From a virus, in IMG/VR virus record IMGVR_UViG_3300006033_000120, positions 1-22,121 of that record: a stretch of 22,121 nt of DNA, one strand, 5' to 3'. Positions 4,949-19,105 of the stretch are shown one piece after another. Under the pieces are notes generated by a model. That model worked only from the letters and a program-made list of their open reading frames with translations. It was not told the origin of the DNA and searched no databases. Every line of letters begins with the position of its first letter. Positions within the stretch are counted from its first letter, which is position 1. Position numbers and translations under genes: made by a program.

Positions 4949-5232
4949 CCGGGCTGGTGGACAGAATCGCGGCGCGGCTGGGCATGGCCCAGGCCCGGTG
5001 GCGCCGTGTGTTCGCCGGCGATGACGGGCAGCGCGTGCTGGCGGAAATCGCCCGCTTTCTGGAAATCGACCGGCCCGCCTATGTCAAGGGCGATGCTGAA
5101 GCCGTGACCGCGCGCGCGATCAAGCGCGATCTGTGGCGCTTCATTGAAACCAATCTGCAGGCGACGCCGCAGGAGTTGCAGGCCATCGCGGCAAGGCTTG
5201 CCAAGGCCAGCGAGAAGGAAATCAGCGGATGA
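4945..5232 (+). CDS. Bbp19-like phage head protein
   Basis: The 95-residue product resembles the small Bbp19 family of Bordetella phage BPP-1 and relatives: a central FAGDDGQRVLAEIARFLEIDRPAY segment followed by a GDAEAVTARAIKRDLWRFIE helix, matching the family theme of 'GxxVLxxLxrF ... dp ... EGrR'. Family members lie between portal and scaffold genes, as here. The role is not established; a structural or assembly helper is likely. It is linked to its neighbours on both sides by ATGA overlaps, which suggests coupled translation with portal and scaffold. Confidence 0.65.
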   Translation: MTGLVDRIAARLGMAQARWRRVFAGDDGQRVLAEIARFLEIDRPAYVKGDAEAVTARAIKRDLWRFIETNLQATPQELQAIAARLAKASEKEISG

Positions 5233-6128
5233 GACGCAAACTGTTGTCCATGACGGGTTTGTCATTCATGGCCGCCGCAGCCCCTTGGCTGTGCGGCATC
5301 GAGGGCAACGGGGATGATGGCGGTGCGGGTGGCGGCGGCAATCCGCCGCCCGCCGATGGCGGCAAGGCCCCACCCGCCGATGGCGGCAATCCGCCCCCCG
5401 CCGATGGCGGCAAGGTGCCGCCCGCCGATGGCGGCAAGACACCGCCCGCCGATGGCGGCAAGACACCGCCCGCCGATGGCGGCAATCCACCGCCTGCTGA
5501 TGGCAGCAAGGCCCCGCCCGTACCGTTCGCCAGCCTGTCCGAGCCGGATCGCGCTGTCCTGAAGGAGCTTGGCTTCGATGATCCGGCCAAGGCGTTGGAG
5601 GCGCTGAAGGACCATGCCGGGCGGGCGAAGGATTTGCCCGCCAAGCCGGAAGATTTCGATTTTGCCCCCCCGTCGGATATGCCGGAAGACCTGCCATATG
5701 ACGCGGCGTTGGCGGACGCCTTCCGCAAGATCGGGGTCGATGAAAAGCTGACCAAATCCCAGGCCAAGGCGCTGCATGATTTCTGGGTAGCTGATCAGGT
5801 GGCACGGCATCGGGACTATGTGAAAGGCCTGGAGGAGGCAAAAGACAAGGCTTGGCAGGAATTGCGGCGCATCGATCCGCGCTGGCGCGGCGATGGCGGC
5901 AAGCAGCTGGTGGACCGGGTGCAGGCCTTCGTGCGCGGCAAGGGGCCGCCCGGCCTGGCGGACGAGCTGGTCCTGACCCATGAGGGTAATAAGCCCCTGC
6001 TAATCGCCTTTTTCGAGGAATTGTCGCGCGACTATGCCGAAGACGACTTCGTGTCCGGCCAGCCCGGCGGCGCGAGCGACCGTTCCCTGGCGGAAGAGAT
6101 GTACCCGACCATGCAAAAGAAATCCTGA
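5229..6128 (+). CDS. Scaffolding protein candidate with octapeptide repeat
   Basis: Position directly before the capsid gene, acidic helical C-terminal two thirds and lack of enzyme motifs fit an internal scaffold that shapes the prohead. Residues 1-22 (MRRK, then LLSMTGLSFMAAAAPWLC) look like a short signal or membrane segment, unusual for a cytoplasmic scaffold; there is no proper lipobox before C22. Residues about 35-97 are seven tandem copies of an eight-residue unit (GGxxPPAD) and a partial eighth. From about 100 onward come SLSEPDRAVLKELGFDDPAKALEALKDHAGR, the KPEDFDFAPP and DAALADAFRKIGVDEKLTKSQAKALHDFW motifs and a closing acidic helix, as in many phage scaffolds. ATG 5229 has AAGGAA upstream and overlaps the previous stop. 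Confidence 0.72.
   Translation: MRRKLLSMTGLSFMAAAAPWLCGIEGNGDDGGAGGGGNPPPADGGKAPPADGGNPPPADGGKVPPADGGKTPPADGGKTPPADGGNPPPADGSKAPPVPFASLSEPDRAVLKELGFDDPAKALEALKDHAGRAKDLPAKPEDFDFAPPSDMPEDLPYDAALADAFRKIGVDEKLTKSQAKALHDFWVADQVARHRDYVKGLEEAKDKAWQELRRIDPRWRGDGGKQLVDRVQAFVRGKGPPGLADELVLTHEGNKPLLIAFFEELSRDYAEDDFVSGQPGGASDRSLAEEMYPTMQKKS
5333..5506 (+). repeat. 24-bp tandem repeat, about seven copies, in the scaffold gene
   Basis: A 24-base unit beginning GGCGGCAA and ending GCCCGCCGAT recurs in register about seven times, encoding GG(K/N)xPPAD. The fifth and sixth copies are identical; the others differ mainly at the codons after GGCGGCAA (aat ccg, aag gcc, aag gtg, aag aca). The last copy has decayed (GCCTGCTGAT, GGCAGC). 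Because the unit is a multiple of three, slippage or unequal recombination would change linker length without shifting the frame. Confidence 0.9.
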
Positions 6129-10975: not shown

Positions 10976-11509
10976 GTGTGCGATCCGACAACCATGATCG
11001 TCGCCACGTTGGCAACTGCGGGTGTCAACGCTTATGGGCAGATCCAGGCAGGCCAGCAGGCGCGCGCGGCGGGGGAGCGCAATGCCCAGATCCTGGAACA
11101 GCGCGCGGCGGCGCAACGCGAACAGACCGCGTTCAATGAGGAACGAACGCGCGCGCGCAATAGGCGGGCCGCCGCCCTGGCCCGCGTCGGCCTGGCGACC
11201 TCCGGGGTGGCTGCCACCGGAACGCCGCTTTCGGTGGCGGGTGCCGACCGGGAAGAGATGGAGTTGGACGCCCTGACGGTGCGGTGGCAGGGCGAGTTGG
11301 AAGCGCAGGAAAGCCTGAACGAGGCCGAAACACAGAGATTCCTGGGCCGCCAGGCCGCCAGCCGGGGCGTGATGGGCGCCATCGGTACGCTGGCGACGGG
11401 GGCCTTGAGCGCGGGCGGGGTCGCCTACAAGGCCGGCATGCTGAATTTCGGGAATGGCGGCGGCGTATCGACCCTGCGCCAGAACGCCCAGTTTCTGCGG
11501 GGGGTGTGA
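10976..11509 (+). CDS. Internal virion protein, T7 gp14-like
   Basis: From GTG 10976 the 177-residue product begins MCDPTTMIVATLATAGVNAY, similar to T7 gp14 and relatives, which start MC and carry an N-terminal hydrophobic helix. A long Ala/Gln/Arg/Glu helical region follows (about 20-130), with RNRRAAALARVGLATSGVAATGTPL (about 56-80) resembling the 'G..mLegSs' turn of gp14. A hydrophobic GVMGAIGTLATGALSAGGVAYKAG segment is near the C-terminus. gp14 forms the outer-membrane part of the ejection channel in T7; the same role is inferred here. The gene sits just after the nozzle and before the large internal proteins, as in T7. Confidence 0.72.
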   Translation: MCDPTTMIVATLATAGVNAYGQIQAGQQARAAGERNAQILEQRAAAQREQTAFNEERTRARNRRAAALARVGLATSGVAATGTPLSVAGADREEMELDALTVRWQGELEAQESLNEAETQRFLGRQAASRGVMGAIGTLATGALSAGGVAYKAGMLNFGNGGGVSTLRQNAQFLRGV

Positions 11510-13659
11510 TGGCATTTCGTATCGGAACGGGTGTCGAGGCGCGCGGGATCGGCGGGGCCGGCAATGTCGGCCGGGGATCGCTGATCCCGATCACGGCGGC
11601 TACATCGCCGGCGCTGGCTATCGATACCGGCCGCATCCAGGGCGCATTGGAAGATATCGCGGCCGAGCGCGCCCAGAAGGAGCGGGAAAAGCTGGCCGAG
11701 CAGAAAAAGCATGAGGAGTTGCAGCGCCGCATCGCCGAAACATCCTGGCATGCGCGCAGCTTTGCCGAGTTTTCGCAGCGCATGAATGATCAGGTGGAAG
11801 CCTTCGATGCGGAAGGCGGCGCGGTGAAGCCGGACTATGCCGCCCGCGTGCGAGAGACGGGCGAAACGATGCTGCAGGAATACTTGCAGGAACAGTCGAT
11901 TTCCCCCCTGGCGCGGGCCGAGTTCGAAGCCAGTGCATTGCGGGCCGTGACCGGATTTCACAATCAGGCGCTGGGCCGCAGCCGGTCGGCCCAGGCGGCG
12001 GAAACGGTGGATCGCTGGAACGATTTCACGCGCGGCATCGCCAACAGGGCCAATCGTGAACCGGGCGGGCTGGATGCGGCGCTGGAACAGCTGAACGCGG
12101 AATTCGACAGTTTTTCCCAGGCCATGCCGGCGGAAGATCGCGAGGAATACCGCCGCGTGAGCAATGCCCTGGTGGTACGCCAGGAAGTGGACGGCATGAT
12201 AACCAAGGGAAGGCTGTCCCAGGCGGAAGCCCTGCTGAATTCCGGCCGGTTCGATTCCCTGCTGGACCCTGACACGGTGTCGCGCCTGCGTTCCGGCATC
12301 GAGACAGAGCGCCGTCGTATCGTCGCGGAAAACCGGGACGAAGTGGAGATGCTGGGGCGGTCGGCCATGGCGCGGGCACAGCGTGGCGAACCCGTGGATG
12401 ACGGGGTGTTCGACCGGATCGAAGCGCTGGGCGGTGATGGCAATATCTGGGCGGAACGAGTGGTGCGAAGCGAAACCGTCTTCGGTCATGTATCCCTTGC
12501 CAGCGAGATGGGGTCGGATGAGCGCGCGGCCTATCTGCGCGCGATCCGGCCGGACGCGGCTTCCGCCGGCTATCAGGGCCGCGATACCTACGGCGACGAC
12601 ATTGCCGATTGGGATGCCGTGGTGCGCGGGGTGCAGGAATTCGAAACCAGGCTGGAGCGGGATCCGGCTGCTGCCGTGGATGCGGCGGTGGCCCGGCGGA
12701 TGGAACGCGATGGCGCATCCCAGGATGGGGAAGACCCGCAGGCCCGCCGTCTGGCTTATCGCATCGAGGAGCAGCGCCGCCGTGGCGTGATCGACCCCGC
12801 GCCAATGACGCGCGAGGAGGCGCGGGACTGGACCGGGCGCTTCGAGCAGGCCGATGTGAATGGCAGGATCGGCATGCTGGGCGATCTGTCCGGCGGTATG
12901 GGCGAGCATTTCCCGCGCGCCATCGGCATGCTGGCCGATGAAGGCCTGCCGAAGGGCGCGGCCATGGCCGGCTGGGCGTCGCATCAGGGTCGCTTAGCCG
13001 ATGCCCGCGCCATTCTGTCGGGGGCGACGCATCCGGAAGCGGCGAAGATCCTGCCAGGATCGACCGATTTCAAGGCGGCGCTGCAGAACCGCGTCGCGGC
13101 GATTTTCCCGCAGGATCAGGATATGTATGCCGCGACGGTGGATGCGGCGCGGGCGGCCTATGTTTCCCTGTCGCAGGCGGCCGGTGCAACCGATGGCGAA
13201 TTCGTGGGGGAGGAAGCCGAAGGCAGGCTGAACCGCGCCATCGAAATGGCGACCGGCGGCGTGATCGACTATCAGGGCGCGGCCTTCCTGCCCCCGAAGC
13301 CGGGCGTCACGCCATCGGCCTTTGAGCGCACGCTGACCACGCTGGCGGATGAGGATCTGGCCGGCGCGCGCAATGCGACGGGAAGCGCCGTGACGGCGGA
13401 AGATGTGTTGGAAGGTCGGGTGCGGCTGGAAACGCTGGCGGATGGGCGCTATGTGCTGATGGCGCCGGATGGCGCGATCCTGGATGGCAGGCGGGTAGAG
13501 CGGGGCGATCCCTATCCGGTCTTCGTGCTGGATCTGGGCGATCTCTGGCCCAGGCTGGGCGGGCGCCTGATCGAACGCGCCAGGGAGCGCGAGCAGCAAA
13601 TCCGCCAGTCGATCCGGGATGCCGGGCCGGTGCCGCGCGAAGACGGGATGGTGCCGTGA
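11509..13659 (+). CDS. Large internal virion/ejection protein, T7 gp15-like by position
   Basis: The 716-residue protein lies where T7 encodes gp15 (747 residues), the periplasmic part of the ejection channel. The frame is open back to 11284, but ATG 11509 shares one base with the previous stop (TGATG) and gives a coherent N-terminus (MAFRIGTGVEARGIGGAGNVGRG). Residues about 47-75 are a charged coiled coil (DIAAERAQKEREKLAEQKKHEELQRR), followed by mostly helical sequence with many Arg/Glu/Ala. A beta-rich C-terminal part contains LETLADGRYVLMAPDGAILDGRRV near 655-675. I saw no enzymatic motif. The assignment rests on gene order, size and helical character. Confidence 0.68.
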   Translation: MAFRIGTGVEARGIGGAGNVGRGSLIPITAATSPALAIDTGRIQGALEDIAAERAQKEREKLAEQKKHEELQRRIAETSWHARSFAEFSQRMNDQVEAFDAEGGAVKPDYAARVRETGETMLQEYLQEQSISPLARAEFEASALRAVTGFHNQALGRSRSAQAAETVDRWNDFTRGIANRANREPGGLDAALEQLNAEFDSFSQAMPAEDREEYRRVSNALVVRQEVDGMITKGRLSQAEALLNSGRFDSLLDPDTVSRLRSGIETERRRIVAENRDEVEMLGRSAMARAQRGEPVDDGVFDRIEALGGDGNIWAERVVRSETVFGHVSLASEMGSDERAAYLRAIRPDAASAGYQGRDTYGDDIADWDAVVRGVQEFETRLERDPAAAVDAAVARRMERDGASQDGEDPQARRLAYRIEEQRRRGVIDPAPMTREEARDWTGRFEQADVNGRIGMLGDLSGGMGEHFPRAIGMLADEGLPKGAAMAGWASHQGRLADARAILSGATHPEAAKILPGSTDFKAALQNRVAAIFPQDQDMYAATVDAARAAYVSLSQAAGATDGEFVGEEAEGRLNRAIEMATGGVIDYQGAAFLPPKPGVTPSAFERTLTTLADEDLAGARNATGSAVTAEDVLEGRVRLETLADGRYVLMAPDGAILDGRRVERGDPYPVFVLDLGDLWPRLGGRLIERAREREQQIRQSIRDAGPVPREDGMVP

Positions 13660-16634
13660 TGTTCAACGAACGCGATCATCTGGCCCGCCTGCCCATCGGG
13701 GGCAATGCGCCCTCCGCGCCGGGAGCGAACCTGACCGCCGGATATGAGGCGCAATGGGCGGCGGACAACGTCTTTTCCGACATGGTGAACCGTGAGGAGG
13801 CCTATTCCCGGCTGGTCGCCACCATCAATGAGCGCCTGGGCGAGGCCGGGCGGCCGATCACCTCGCCCATCGGTGGCGAGGACTGGTTGACCGAAGAAGA
13901 GCGGGCGGTTGATCCGGTCTGGGGTGTGATCCCCGCCAACAGCCAGCCCGCGCAGGAAATGGTGGAACAGCGCTTCTGGGATCGGCTGGACGAGATGCGG
14001 GCCGAGCGGCCGGAACTGCTGGAAGGCCTGCCGCAGAACCGCGCCAATTTCCTGGAGGAGATGGAACGCGATCTGCGCGGCCGGGTGGAAAAATTCGAGG
14101 AATTGCAGGCGCGCGCGACCGGCTGGGGGGTGGCGGCCGGCATTACCGGCCAGATGGGGGCGGCGATGGAGGACCCGCCGAACGCGGCGTCCCTGTTGGT
14201 AGGTGCGCCGGTTCGTGCGGGCCTGCTGGCGAAAATGGCGATCGAGGCCGGTCTGAATGCAGGCCAGGAAGCGCTGGCGCAACCCCAGGTGCAGGGTTAT
14301 CGCGGGCGTCTTGGGCTGGAATCCGGCCCGGCACAAGCCCTGGAGAATATCGCGCTGGCGGGCGCCGGCGGTGCGACTTTCGTGCTGGGCGAGCGCATTG
14401 TGGGAACGGCGCTGAAGAGCGGATGGAGGGCGGTGGAAAAGGCGCTGGGGCGCCGGATGACGCCGGAAGAACGGGCGGCCCTGGAGGCGGAAATCCGCGC
14501 GCGCGAGGTCGAGGCGGCAAACCCCGTCGAACGTCCGGGTGCACAGGACAGGGCGGAACATGTCGAGGCACTGGACGCGGCCCGGGCCGATGCGGAGCGG
14601 GGAGAGCCTTATGCCGGATCGGTGCCGCAACATGGCGGCATCGGGACCGGCACCTATGACTATCAGTTGGACGGGCGGACCATCGCGGTGGATCTGCCGG
14701 ACCGGGTCCATGCCGACCTGCTGGATCATGCGCTGGCGCTGGAAACGGGGGACGGCGATGCGGCGGCCCGGCGTGACATTCTGTTCCGGCGCTTGCAAGG
14801 CTATGTGGGCGACGATCCGGGCGCGGGCCAGCCCTTCCGCACGGTGGATGACGTGGACCTGTTGGCACAGGATTATCTGGAACAGGTCCGGGAGCTGGCG
14901 CAGGGGCGCGACCGGATCAATCCCGGTTCCATTCTGGATGCGGACAGGGCTGCCGATTTCACCCGGGCGCTTGTGCTGGAGAAGCTGGGCGGCGGTCAAC
15001 CCGTGCGGGTAGAGGTGGATGGTCGGCCGGTTGTGGTCGATCCGCCGGCCCTGCGTCGGGCGGTGGAGCCAGCCCAGGAATCGGCCGGTGTCGCCCTGCG
15101 CCCGATCCGCCAGGATATAGCCTTCCTGCCATCGGGTGCGCGCGTCGATGTGGAATATGCCCTGGTCGAAGCCGCGACGCTGAAAACCAGCCATGACGAT
15201 ATGTTCCGCGCCAATGTGGACTATCCGCAGGCCCTGCAACCGCGCGAGCGCGACCGCAGCGCGGCGGAATTGCAGGTGCAGGAGATGGCCCGCGCACTGG
15301 AACCGCGCCTGCTGATCGAGGATCCGAAGGTGACGGGCGGCGCCCCGATCATCGCGCCCGACGGCGTGGTGGAATCGGGCAATGGGCGAACCATGGCGAT
15401 CCGCCGCGCCTATGCCGAAGGATCGGAGCGGGCTTCGGCCTATCGCGCGGAGCTGGCCGCGCGGGGTTTTGATGTGGAGGGGATGACGGCCCCGGTCCTG
15501 GTTCGGGTTCGACGTCAGCCCATGACGGAAGGGGAGCGGCTGGATTTCGTGCGCCAGGCCAACAAGCGCGACACGCTGGGCATGTCTTCGGCCGAACAGG
15601 CGATGAGCGATGCGCGCCTGCTGGATGAGAATGTGCTTGCGCTCTATCGTGGCGGCGATGTGCGGCTGGCGGCGAACCGGGCCTTCGTGCGTGCGGTGCT
15701 GGACCGGGTGGTTGGGCGGCAGGATGCAGCATCCCTGATCGGGGCGGATGGCGAGCTGGCCCAGGCCGGCGCCAGGCGGATCGAAGCGGCCATGCTGGCG
15801 CGGGCCTATGACGCGGGCGATCTGGTCACCGCGCTGATCGAGGATGCGGACAACAATATCCGCGCCATCGGCGGGGCCATGCTGGATGTCGCCGGCCCCT
15901 GGGCCGCGATGCGCGGCCAGGTCGCGTCGGGTGCGATCCATCCGGACATGGATGTAACCGCCCATCTGGTGGAAGCGGTGCGGCTGGTGCGCCGCGCCCG
16001 GAATGCCGGCCGCAATGTCGCGGAATATGTCTTCCAGCGGGACGCCTTTTCGGACGATCTCTCGGATCAGACGGCGGCGCTGCTGCATCTGATGTTCAGC
16101 GACCCTGCCTTTTCCCGGCCGGTTGGCCGTGCGAAACTGGCGGCCCGGTTGCAGGATTTCGTGGCGGCCGCCTTGCAGACGCAACCCGGACGCGATATGT
16201 TCGGGCAGGAGCCGGACACGCTAGCCATGCTGCGCCGGCGTGGAGGCGATGATGGACCAGACCAAGCAGCCAATGCCGGTGGCCCCGGAGCGGACGGCCG
16301 AAGTGACGGATCTTCGGCTGGCCCGGATGAGTCCGGCGCTGCTGGGGGTCTTCGCGCAGGTGAACCGTCAGGCCGCCGCCCGCCATCCGGACGAGGCCTG
16401 GCGGATGGAAACGGCCGGGGAGATGGAGCGGGTTCAGCGCGCGCTCAACTCCAGGCGGAAATCCAACGGCTAGAACCCGAACTGGACGGGCTGAGCGCGA
16501 CCGACCCCGAGACGGGAGCGGTCATTTCCGCGCGCGCCCTGCTGGAGGAGGCGGAGCGCCGCGTCCAGGCCGCATCTGAAATCACATCCTGCGTATTCGG
16601 CGCCGCGCCCCGTGCGGCCGGGGGGGCGGCATGA
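13656..16634 (+). CDS. Large virion protein with ddrB/ParB-like domain
   Basis: The 992-residue protein starts within the stop of the previous gene (ATGATG overlap). Residues 1-150 are charged and helical. Two glycine/alanine-rich hydrophobic stretches (about 154-200, 225-253) are typical of internal proteins that cross membranes on ejection. Residues about 498-655 match the ddrB-like ParB superfamily domain: VEYALVEAATL, YPQALQPRERDRS, APIIAPDGVVESGNGRTMAI, TAPVLVRVR, then DFVRQANKR and SSAEQAMSDARLL. Members occur in phage polyvalent proteins and may be nucleases or nucleotide-binding. Residues about 861-928 are a Gly/Ala/Asp/Pro linker with atypical codon use, overlapping a small gene in another frame. 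A final helical segment (929-992) has normal codon use. Likely injected with the DNA. Confidence 0.72.
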   Translation: MMFNERDHLARLPIGGNAPSAPGANLTAGYEAQWAADNVFSDMVNREEAYSRLVATINERLGEAGRPITSPIGGEDWLTEEERAVDPVWGVIPANSQPAQEMVEQRFWDRLDEMRAERPELLEGLPQNRANFLEEMERDLRGRVEKFEELQARATGWGVAAGITGQMGAAMEDPPNAASLLVGAPVRAGLLAKMAIEAGLNAGQEALAQPQVQGYRGRLGLESGPAQALENIALAGAGGATFVLGERIVGTALKSGWRAVEKALGRRMTPEERAALEAEIRAREVEAANPVERPGAQDRAEHVEALDAARADAERGEPYAGSVPQHGGIGTGTYDYQLDGRTIAVDLPDRVHADLLDHALALETGDGDAAARRDILFRRLQGYVGDDPGAGQPFRTVDDVDLLAQDYLEQVRELAQGRDRINPGSILDADRAADFTRALVLEKLGGGQPVRVEVDGRPVVVDPPALRRAVEPAQESAGVALRPIRQDIAFLPSGARVDVEYALVEAATLKTSHDDMFRANVDYPQALQPRERDRSAAELQVQEMARALEPRLLIEDPKVTGGAPIIAPDGVVESGNGRTMAIRRAYAEGSERASAYRAELAARGFDVEGMTAPVLVRVRRQPMTEGERLDFVRQANKRDTLGMSSAEQAMSDARLLDENVLALYRGGDVRLAANRAFVRAVLDRVVGRQDAASLIGADGELAQAGARRIEAAMLARAYDAGDLVTALIEDADNNIRAIGGAMLDVAGPWAAMRGQVASGAIHPDMDVTAHLVEAVRLVRRARNAGRNVAEYVFQRDAFSDDLSDQTAALLHLMFSDPAFSRPVGRAKLAARLQDFVAAALQTQPGRDMFGQEPDTLAMLRRRGGDDGPDQAANAGGPGADGRSDGSSAGPDESGAAGGLRAGEPSGRRPPSGRGLADGNGRGDGAGSARAQLQAEIQRLEPELDGLSATDPETGAVISARALLEEAERRVQAASEITSCVFGAAPRAAGGAA
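16242..16246 (+). promoter_or_regulatory. Internal Shine-Dalgarno for the overprinted gene
   Basis: GGAGG lies five bases before ATG 16252 within the large virion protein gene. It is out of frame for that protein's translation and would allow internal initiation of the 73-residue overlapping frame. Confidence 0.5.
16252..16473 (+). CDS. Putative overprinted small protein, 73 aa
   Basis: This +1-frame ORF is wholly inside the 992-residue virion protein gene. From ATG 16252 it reads MDQTKQPMPVAPERTAEVTD and continues with a balanced, helical, charged sequence including LRLARMSPALLGVFAQVNRQ, AARHPDEAWRMETAGEMERV and QRALNSRRKSNG. In this stretch the third codon positions of this frame are mostly G or C, as in the rest of the window, while the host gene frame has clearly lower third-position GC and encodes a low-complexity Gly/Ala/Asp/Pro linker. 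It has its own GGAGG. In-frame starts also exist at GTG 16240 and ATG 16249. No family was recognised. An alternative is that this is a remnant of a separate gene that merged by frame fusion. Confidence 0.6.
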   Translation: MDQTKQPMPVAPERTAEVTDLRLARMSPALLGVFAQVNRQAAARHPDEAWRMETAGEMERVQRALNSRRKSNG

Positions 16635-19105
16635 GCGTGCGCCAATGCATCCAGTCCAAGCGGCTGACGGGCAAGCTCGCCCCGAAGGAAGCCGATGAGG
16701 CGGAAGTCCTGTTCGATCAGTTGCGGAACGAATTTCGCAAGACGCTGGGCAGCAATGAAGCCGATCTGGAAGCCGCCGCCGCGCTGGAACGCATCATGCG
16801 CGAGCGGGCCGAACAGTACCGTTTCCAGACCGGGCTGCAGATCCTGGCCGACAAGCGGAACCTGGATCTGGTTTCCAGGCATTCGCGCGGTGTCGGCAAT
16901 GGTGTTCTGGCCCTGCTGGACAAGGATATCTATGGCGATCTGAATGGCATCGCCAATGTGTCGTCGGTGCATGCCCAGATGGTCGGCCGGGCACATTCCC
17001 TGCTGTTCGGTACCATCGAGAAATTCCGCGTCAAGGGGCTGTCTCTGGTCAATGACAAGGCCGGTGAAGAGCGGCTGCTGAAGGCAATCCTGGATGGTGC
17101 GCCCGATAAGGACATGGCGGGACATGTCGATGCCTGGAAACAGGCAACCGAGATGCTGGCCGAACAGTTCCGCAAGCGCGGCGGCATCATCCCGCAGGGG
17201 GATGACCGGATCTATTTCCCGAACCCGCGCCATGACGCGGCGGCGATCAACAAGGTGGGGCGAACGGCCTGGAAGGCGAAGGTCATTCCGTTGCTGGACC
17301 GGGAAAAGATGCTGGATTTCGAGACCGGCCGGCCGATGGATGATTTGAAATTCGAGACGGTTTTGAACGAGGCCTATGAAACCCTGGCATCGGGCGGGAT
17401 TTCCAAATCCGATGGCGCGGGCCGGGGCGCCGGTTGGCTGGCCCGCGCCCGCGCGGCCCCGCGCATCCTGCGCTTTCGCGATGCTGATTCCTGGAGCGCC
17501 TATAATGCGGAATTCGGCGAAGACGGCATCTATGGCGCGATGATGGGCCATGTCGACCGGATCGCGCGGGAAATCGCGGCCATGGATGTGCTGGGGCCGA
17601 ACCCGGATGCGGCCATGGCGCGCTTTACCGATCTGATCCGCCAGGAACATGGCGCATTGGCCGGCGCGAAGGCCAGTCACGCGGCCCAAACCTATCGGGT
17701 GGTGGCTGCCATCGACCCGATTGAAAACCCCGGCCTGGCGGCCTTTGGCGGGGCGGTGCGATCCTGGTTGACCGGACAGCAGCTTGGGTCGGCCATGCTG
17801 ACGGCGGTAACCGATTTCGGTTTCATGAAACAGACGGCGGGCTTCAACGGCCTGTCCGCCGCCCGCGCCATGAAATACTATACCGGGCTGATGAATCCGG
17901 CATCATCCGCGGACAGGACTGCGGCGGCCCGGATGGGTATCGTGGTGGAAAACGCGCTGGGCGCGATGCACGCCCAGGCCAGGTTTTCCGGCGCGGCGGG
18001 CGCGCAGCGTTTTGCCGGGCGCTACGCCGATTGGGTCATGCGCGCATCGGGGTTGGCGCCGCATACCTATGCGGCCCGCGTGGGCTTTCAGCAGGAAATC
18101 TTCGCCCAGCTATCCGATCAGGCCGGGAAGGACTGGGCAGCGCTGCCGCGCGATTTCCGCGCCATGCTGAAACGCTATGGCCTGGATGGCGAAAGCTGGG
18201 AACGCCTGCGCGCGACGGACGGTTTCGAGCATCGCGGCCAGCGCTTCCTGACCCCGCTTTCGGTGGAGGAGGGGGTTGGCGGCGCCGATGGCGCCAGGCT
18301 GGGCCAGGCCATCGCCCGCATGGCCTGGGAGGAGACGGAGCGCGCGGTCCCGAAAGGCTCGGCCCGTGTTGAGGCGCTGTTGCGGGCGGGCACGCAGCGC
18401 GGTTCGGTGATCGGCGAGGCGGTGTCTTTCCTGACCATGTACAAGCGCTTCCCGATCCTGATCATCCAGAACCATCTGGCCCGGGCGATCTTCGACCGGC
18501 AGGGCGGATGGATCGCGCCCGATGGCGGCTTCAGCCGGGGTAAATATCTGGCCGGGCTGGCGATCTACACCACGATGATGGGCGCCTTCGCGCTGCAATT
18601 ATACGAAATCTCCAATGGGCGCGACCCGATGGCGATGGATGACGCGACGTTCTGGGGAAAGGCCGCGTTGAAGGGTGGTTCGCTCGGCTTCTTCGGGGAT
18701 TTCCTCACATCGGCGGACGGCACGAACCGCTATGGGCGCGATCTGATATCCTCCATGGCCGGGCCTGGCTTCGGCCTGGGGCAGGATATCGTTGATCTGA
18801 CGTTCGGCAACGCCGGCGAGGCCTTGCGTGGCGAGGATACAAGGATCGGGCGGGAGGTGGTGCGCTTCGCGGACCGGTATCTGCTGCCCGGTACCTCGCT
18901 CTGGTACAGCAAGCTCGCCATGGATCGGCTGATCATCGACCAGTTGCAGATGCTGGCCGATCCGCAGGCGGCGCATCGCAATGCCGCGCTGGAACGGCGG
19001 GTGCGCAAGGAAACCGGACAATCCTATTTCTGGCGCCCCGGCCGGCTGGCGCCAGAACGCGCGCCCGATCCCGGCGCAATCCGGACAGAGGAGAACTGGC
19101 GATGA
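16631..19105 (+). CDS. Large internal virion/ejection protein, T7 gp16-like by position
   Basis: The 824-residue protein is the third large product after the nozzle and directly precedes the tail fibre, the place of gp16 in T7 (1318 residues, so this is much shorter). It is mostly helical, starting with SVRQCIQSKRLTGKLAPKEADEAEVLFDQLRNEF. A hydrophobic YLAGLAIYTTMMGAFALQLYE stretch lies near residues 638-658, followed by FWGKAALKGGSLGFFGDFL. The C-terminus ends with SYFWRPGRLAPERAPDP, a pattern I know from large podoviral internal proteins. The lytic transglycosylase domain of T7 gp16 is not visible. The start overlaps the previous stop as ATGA. It probably belongs to the DNA-ejection apparatus. 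Confidence 0.7.
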   Translation: MSVRQCIQSKRLTGKLAPKEADEAEVLFDQLRNEFRKTLGSNEADLEAAAALERIMRERAEQYRFQTGLQILADKRNLDLVSRHSRGVGNGVLALLDKDIYGDLNGIANVSSVHAQMVGRAHSLLFGTIEKFRVKGLSLVNDKAGEERLLKAILDGAPDKDMAGHVDAWKQATEMLAEQFRKRGGIIPQGDDRIYFPNPRHDAAAINKVGRTAWKAKVIPLLDREKMLDFETGRPMDDLKFETVLNEAYETLASGGISKSDGAGRGAGWLARARAAPRILRFRDADSWSAYNAEFGEDGIYGAMMGHVDRIAREIAAMDVLGPNPDAAMARFTDLIRQEHGALAGAKASHAAQTYRVVAAIDPIENPGLAAFGGAVRSWLTGQQLGSAMLTAVTDFGFMKQTAGFNGLSAARAMKYYTGLMNPASSADRTAAARMGIVVENALGAMHAQARFSGAAGAQRFAGRYADWVMRASGLAPHTYAARVGFQQEIFAQLSDQAGKDWAALPRDFRAMLKRYGLDGESWERLRATDGFEHRGQRFLTPLSVEEGVGGADGARLGQAIARMAWEETERAVPKGSARVEALLRAGTQRGSVIGEAVSFLTMYKRFPILIIQNHLARAIFDRQGGWIAPDGGFSRGKYLAGLAIYTTMMGAFALQLYEISNGRDPMAMDDATFWGKAALKGGSLGFFGDFLTSADGTNRYGRDLISSMAGPGFGLGQDIVDLTFGNAGEALRGEDTRIGREVVRFADRYLLPGTSLWYSKLAMDRLIIDQLQMLADPQAAHRNAALERRVRKETGQSYFWRPGRLAPERAPDPGAIRTEENWR

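Follow-up and report, generated by a model that had tools for sequence, protein, structure and literature searches.

Coding signal in the +1 frame of gene U

Does one stretch of DNA within a large virion protein gene encode a second protein in the +1 frame? The question is raised by gene U in a sequence of 22,121 nucleotides (the window), a 22 kb IMG/VR virus record that carries the structural operon of a podovirus-like phage. The operon comprises genes for terminase, portal, protease, major head protein and tail proteins, followed by a phrog_992 head protein, the 992-residue protein U with a ddrB-ParB domain and the phrog_684 virion protein V; a tail protein with an F5/8-type-C domain and an endolysin are encoded as well. 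U, its two neighbouring genes and the features of U located below lie on the plus strand. The gene for the upstream head/ejection protein (phrog_992) extends from 11509 to 13659. An ORF of 791 aa (11284-13659) probably reaches too far upstream, where its initial part overlaps the gene ending at 11509; translation likely begins at ATG 11509, which overlaps the preceding stop codon (TGATG). U (13656..16634) probably starts at ATG 13659 and, by synteny with relatives, takes the ejection-protein position. Like the ejection or internal virion proteins of podoviruses (PMC8954989) it is found in the structural operon, between the phrog_992 head protein and V (16631..19105), whose start forms an ATGA overlap with the U stop codon. 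The ddrB-ParB domain of U (15132..15512, residues 493-619) matches Pfam PF18763 with an E value of 1.3e-35 and 122.6 bits, compared to a curated cut-off of 27.6.

A sequence-only reading of the window had reported a move of the coding bias into the +1 frame near the 3′ end of U, a 73-residue ORF with its own GGAGG and ATG 16252, a return of the bias to the host frame downstream and the lack of a separate start for the C-terminal part of U. These observations were reproduced. The +1 frame is open from 16225 to 16473, bounded by TAG 16222-16224 and TAG 16471-16473, and contains in-frame ATGs at 16249 and 16252. A GGAGG Shine-Dalgarno-like site (SD; 16242..16246) precedes the second ATG with a spacer of 5 bases, and the ORF starting there (16252..16473, MDQTKQPMPVAPERTAEVTDLRLARMSPALLGVFAQVNRQAAARHPDEAWRMETAGEMERVQRALNSRRKSNG) would encode 73 amino acids with a pI of 10.6. 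It lies wholly within an ORF of another frame and has its own start signal, as a nested gene does. The host frame contains not a single ATG, GTG or TTG between 16236 and 16600.

From about 16233 to 16451 the low-GC codon position shifts from host position 2 to host position 3, and it is back in the host phase after about 16452. GC contents of the three host phases are 0.88/0.72/0.49 over 16236-16473 and 0.78/0.48/0.78 before this stretch. A codon model built from 6,418 window codons gave an LLR of the +1 over the host frame of 39.5 nats for 16233..16451, a stretch in which the host codon bias is lost and the coding signal is found in the +1 frame. Ordinary 73-codon segments never exceeded −16.9, and true coding segments that are read one frame off and are still open reached 54 ± 12. 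Thus, the composition and codon usage of the ORF are those of a coding frame. Host GC3 in the nested stretch is 37/74 compared to an expected 58.4 (z about −6.5). A further ORF with an SD-like site, located inside V (16695-16943), was rejected with an LLR of −70.

AlphaFold2 applied to the single 73-aa sequence predicted a three-helix bundle (helices 12-25, 28-44 and 48-71) with a mean pLDDT of 80.7 and a pTM of 0.62, although three-helix predictions are not rare for short Ala/Arg/Glu-rich sequences. Fold searches with this model gave no match at E below 0.1.

Part of this pattern follows from the amino acid sequence of U. Stop codons in the +1 frame need a T at host position 2, so that a Gly/Ala/Asp/Pro/Ser/Arg linker leaves the +1 frame open by default; indeed, 92% of the synonymous recodings of the window linker kept it open. 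None of about 4,600 open synonymous recodings at genome codon usage reached an LLR of 39.5 (maximum 8.6), whereas recoding with uniform synonymous codons gave a median of 34.9, and 32% of these recodings reached 39.5. Recoding of the Gly-Gly-Asp-Asp-Gly codons produced the arrangement of GGAGG and ATG at frequencies from 6% with genome usage to 16% with uniform usage, the background elsewhere being 0.9% per 25 codons. Because uniform codons reproduce the LLR and openness is automatic, the window by itself demonstrates a loss of codon bias in the host frame but not its cause. According to this, there may be no second gene at all: the linker before the C-terminal motif would have lost its codon bias, being relaxed or recently acquired, with both the SD-ATG arrangement and the openness of the +1 frame as by-products of Gly/Asp/Ala codons. 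Such a dip in codon bias is also seen in the related locus L131 (loci are designated by L numbers), although its +1 frame contains a stop codon. Nevertheless, we consider this explanation unlikely, since a second linker of the window that is rich in Gly, Pro and Asp (5289-5560, in a protease-like gene at 5229-6128) keeps a near-normal GC3, and V and the other window genes do not have such dips. The protease-like gene also carries tandem PPADGGK/PPADGGN repeats (5319-5530).

Nested +1 ORFs in U of related phages

Relatives were collected through V homologues, yielding about 60 distinct loci. In nearly all of them a large protein U ends at the start of V, usually with an ATGA overlap. The U proteins share the C-terminal motif P.g...D..G......t.R.l..E.d.d......C, which is also present in the window (..DPETGAVISARALLEEAERRVQAASEITSCVFG.., host frame, 16446..16634). 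By its position before V, the ATGA overlap and this motif the window protein belongs to the U family. The motif is always fused to U in the approximately 60 relatives; since none of them splits U around an intervening gene, U is a single host-frame gene, and the earlier suggestion that two ancestral genes were fused around a third finds no support. Queries with U, V, tail proteins or the 73-aa sequence revealed no close relatives of the window in the collections searched, the nearest showing about 37% in V.

The C-terminal motif ends in a near-universal Cys residue and is conserved across the roughly 60 phages, though the rest of U varies; it is perhaps a packaging or processing signal. The near relatives L131 and L136 (and also L144) differ in U by an inserted module of about 200 residues, which follows the ddrB region and precedes the C-terminal motif; this position is a site of cassette exchange. 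In L144, a contig of Pleomorphomonas koreensis, a U/V pair related to that of the window resides in an alphaproteobacterial genome. The pair probably belongs to a prophage and gives a clue to the group of hosts that such phages infect.

Scanning U for long +1 ORFs led to two families, first A and then B. Family A comprises +1 ORFs of 55-76 aa with the pattern M..qkSTTt......(F/Y)(D/N)(F/Y)..AE..A (e.g. L059 5667-5858), family B those of 82-102 aa with LS..QL..AIs.G..LAmLDaLSM..RKA (e.g. L071 4605-4913, L064 5295-5603). The B profile matched 47 segments including duplicates, about a dozen of which are secure, and the A profile about 20, all of them exclusively in the +1 frame of U. Membership is tentative for L049, L126 and L134 in family B, where pairwise similarity shows no clear excess over recoding, and for L068, L122 and L133 in family A, which are 2-3 sd above recoding. 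Neither family had a match below E 0.04 in Pfam or PHROGs. Nested ORFs of at least 55 aa with SD and ATG amounted to 14 per 11,880 codons of the U C-terminus, 14/14 in the +1 frame and none in the +2 frame, compared to 1 per 53,264 codons in V. L049 is the cultured Dunaliella viridis virus SI2, the annotation of which lacks the nested ORF (tentatively B).

The window ORF resembles both families. Like family A (55-76 aa) it is a short +1 ORF with SD and ATG. The A stop codons are mostly located 110-200 bases before the U stop codon, and most A and some B ORFs fall 110-240 bases before it; the corresponding distance in the window is 161. With family B it shares the +1 position in U next to the linker that precedes the C-terminal module, the SD-ATG start, the loss of host codon bias and a protein with a hydrophilic N-terminus followed by a helical core; the B model consists of a low-confidence basic N-terminus and a long helix. 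Nevertheless, the window protein has no detectable sequence similarity to either family. The A ORFs extend over the end of a host module (DGYA.IDNN) that the window lacks, and the A profile scored the window ORF with E 2.3 (rank 575 of 996 against shuffles). The B core motif is missing from the window ORF, which an iterated B profile did not detect and which scored below most of its own shuffles.

At the A and B ORFs the loss of host codon bias is mostly −2 to −10 sd, and the window ORF, at −7.7 sd, surpasses all other ORFs compared in its +1 LLR. Host GC3 is pushed towards the middle in GC-rich and AT-rich phages alike, as it is in the linker. That these dips in both kinds of genomes coincide with constraint on the +1 frame (see below) further argues against a linker that has simply lost its codon bias.

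The signal might also be a relic of an earlier frame: U would formerly have used the +1 frame from 16233 to 16451 before a pair of compensating indels, arising by mutation or as assembly errors, changed the frame; the start site would then be accidental. Indeed, the signal changes frame near 16233 and again near 16451, at points that precede the ATG and the stop codon, respectively, by about 18-20 bases. In addition, the composite protein would read smoothly. However, no phage or plasmid record searched encodes such a composite, the closest ddrB-domain U homologues (L131, L136) hold nothing like it, and the A and B ORFs of the relatives are nested rather than composite, which makes a relic improbable.

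Selection on the +1 frame

To quantify selection on the nested ORFs, expected substitution counts were taken from the rest of U for pairs of close relatives. In family A, substitutions that are silent in the host frame and alter the +1 product were observed 24 times versus 64.6 expected (0.37; p 6e-9; four pairs). Host-altering, +1-silent substitutions numbered 20 versus 14.6 expected, and +1-silent changes were not reduced (ratio about 1.0-1.4). In the pair L122/L127 a recombinant tract spans ORF A; leaving this pair out gives 21 versus about 63 expected for family A. In family B, 72 host-silent, +1-altering changes compare to 138 expected (p 4e-10). The substitution rate along U falls at ORFs B and A, with values of 0/128, 1/130 and 2/129 in B for the pair L068/L076.

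Two short B peptide patterns fetched 70 further B loci. In 23 pairs from this set, which are not all fully independent, 147 host-silent, +1-altering changes were counted versus 599 expected (0.25; p about 1e-108). B lies inside the host ORF in 70/70 of these loci, the host-frame span being at least 611 codons with a median of about 1,090, and the SD-ATG start is kept in most of them. Every substitution class was lowered, the +1-silent class least so (0.42), which indicates that both frames are constrained.

Similarity induced by the host frame was controlled for by synonymous recoding of the host frame in both members of distant pairs. The real +1 similarity exceeded that of the recoded sequences by z 6-17 for ten B pairs from genomes of 34-61% GC, and by z 4.4 for L107. 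As judged from these sequence comparisons, the nested +1 genes in U of the relatives are clearly preserved by purifying selection. A constraint on the nucleic acid (RNA structure, packaging or processing site) rather than on a +1 protein could account for the lowering of all classes in family B, the +1-silent one included, but is very improbable given that +1 peptides of 34% and 61% GC genomes are alike far beyond synonymous recoding, that +1-silent changes are the least suppressed in B and unreduced in A, and that most loci keep SD and ATG.

The coding signal of the window together with the nested genes of the relatives leads us to regard the 73-codon ORF as a probable real nested overlapping gene, with odds of about three in four. 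The dual coding proposed by the sequence-only reading is thus supported by conserved nested +1 genes in U of relatives, by the suppression of host-silent changes there and by a like signature in the window.

Proposed expression, role and significance of the nested gene

For the nested gene of the window we propose that ribosomes on the late structural mRNA would initiate internally at ATG 16252, using the GGAGG site, and would produce a small basic helical protein alongside U. Other ribosomes would stay in the host frame through the same DNA and complete U, whose C-terminal motif and ATGA overlap would lead into V. The host stretch would form a flexible linker that tolerates the composition imposed by the +1 gene. 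That this linker is a by-product of overprinting, as had been suggested, is plausible: its G/A/D/R/P composition is that of a GC-rich +1 gene read in the −1 frame.

Tentatively, the nested protein, whose synthesis would keep pace with that of U, may assist the internal (ejection) proteins as an assembly partner or as an accessory packaged together with them; a function in regulation or lysis is conceivable but less likely. On a broader proposal our opinion is evenly balanced, namely that the U linker is a hot spot of overprinting, at which at least three unrelated small +1 genes (those of A, of B and of the window type) originated or were exchanged, so that in many podoviruses an internal virion protein gene would give rise to one or two further proteins that are missing from annotations.

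Nested genes are in themselves a familiar arrangement. In phage lambda the spanin genes Rz and Rz1 are nested, the small gene lying wholly inside the other in a different frame and with its own ribosome-binding site. Rz and Rz1 are lysis proteins, whereas the host gene in the window encodes a virion protein and the nested stretch a linker. New are the families A and B, their breadth and their recurrent place. We found no earlier description of overlapping or nested genes associated with ejection or internal virion proteins in the open literature; the words 'nested', 'overlap' and 'reading frame' are absent from a review on ejection proteins (PMC8954989), as are 'nested' and 'overlap' from a paper on Sulfitobacter phages (PMC10386132). 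In phage P1, iddB (L001 3078-3476, phage P1 26577-26975) is an annotated ORF inside ddrB and in this respect resembles the window ORF, which also lies within a ddrB-domain gene. It was rejected as a parallel, as it runs antisense to ddrB and its overlap includes the ParB-like domain.

Since annotation pipelines discard long ORFs that are nested, such genes stay unseen. Families A and B, widespread in metagenome viruses, represent a class of phage genes missed by annotation. They lie within a gene that occupies the ejection-protein position, and their members are concrete candidates for testing how phages with short tails assemble or deliver their internal proteins. They also form a clear example from nature of overprinting within a disordered linker, across genomes of about 33% to nearly 70% GC. 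Strong dips in host codon bias that match neither family were seen in U of L102 (around 5606), L003 (around 16351), L120 (around 4400), L135 (around 3227) and L106 (around 5033), and these are possible further nested genes.
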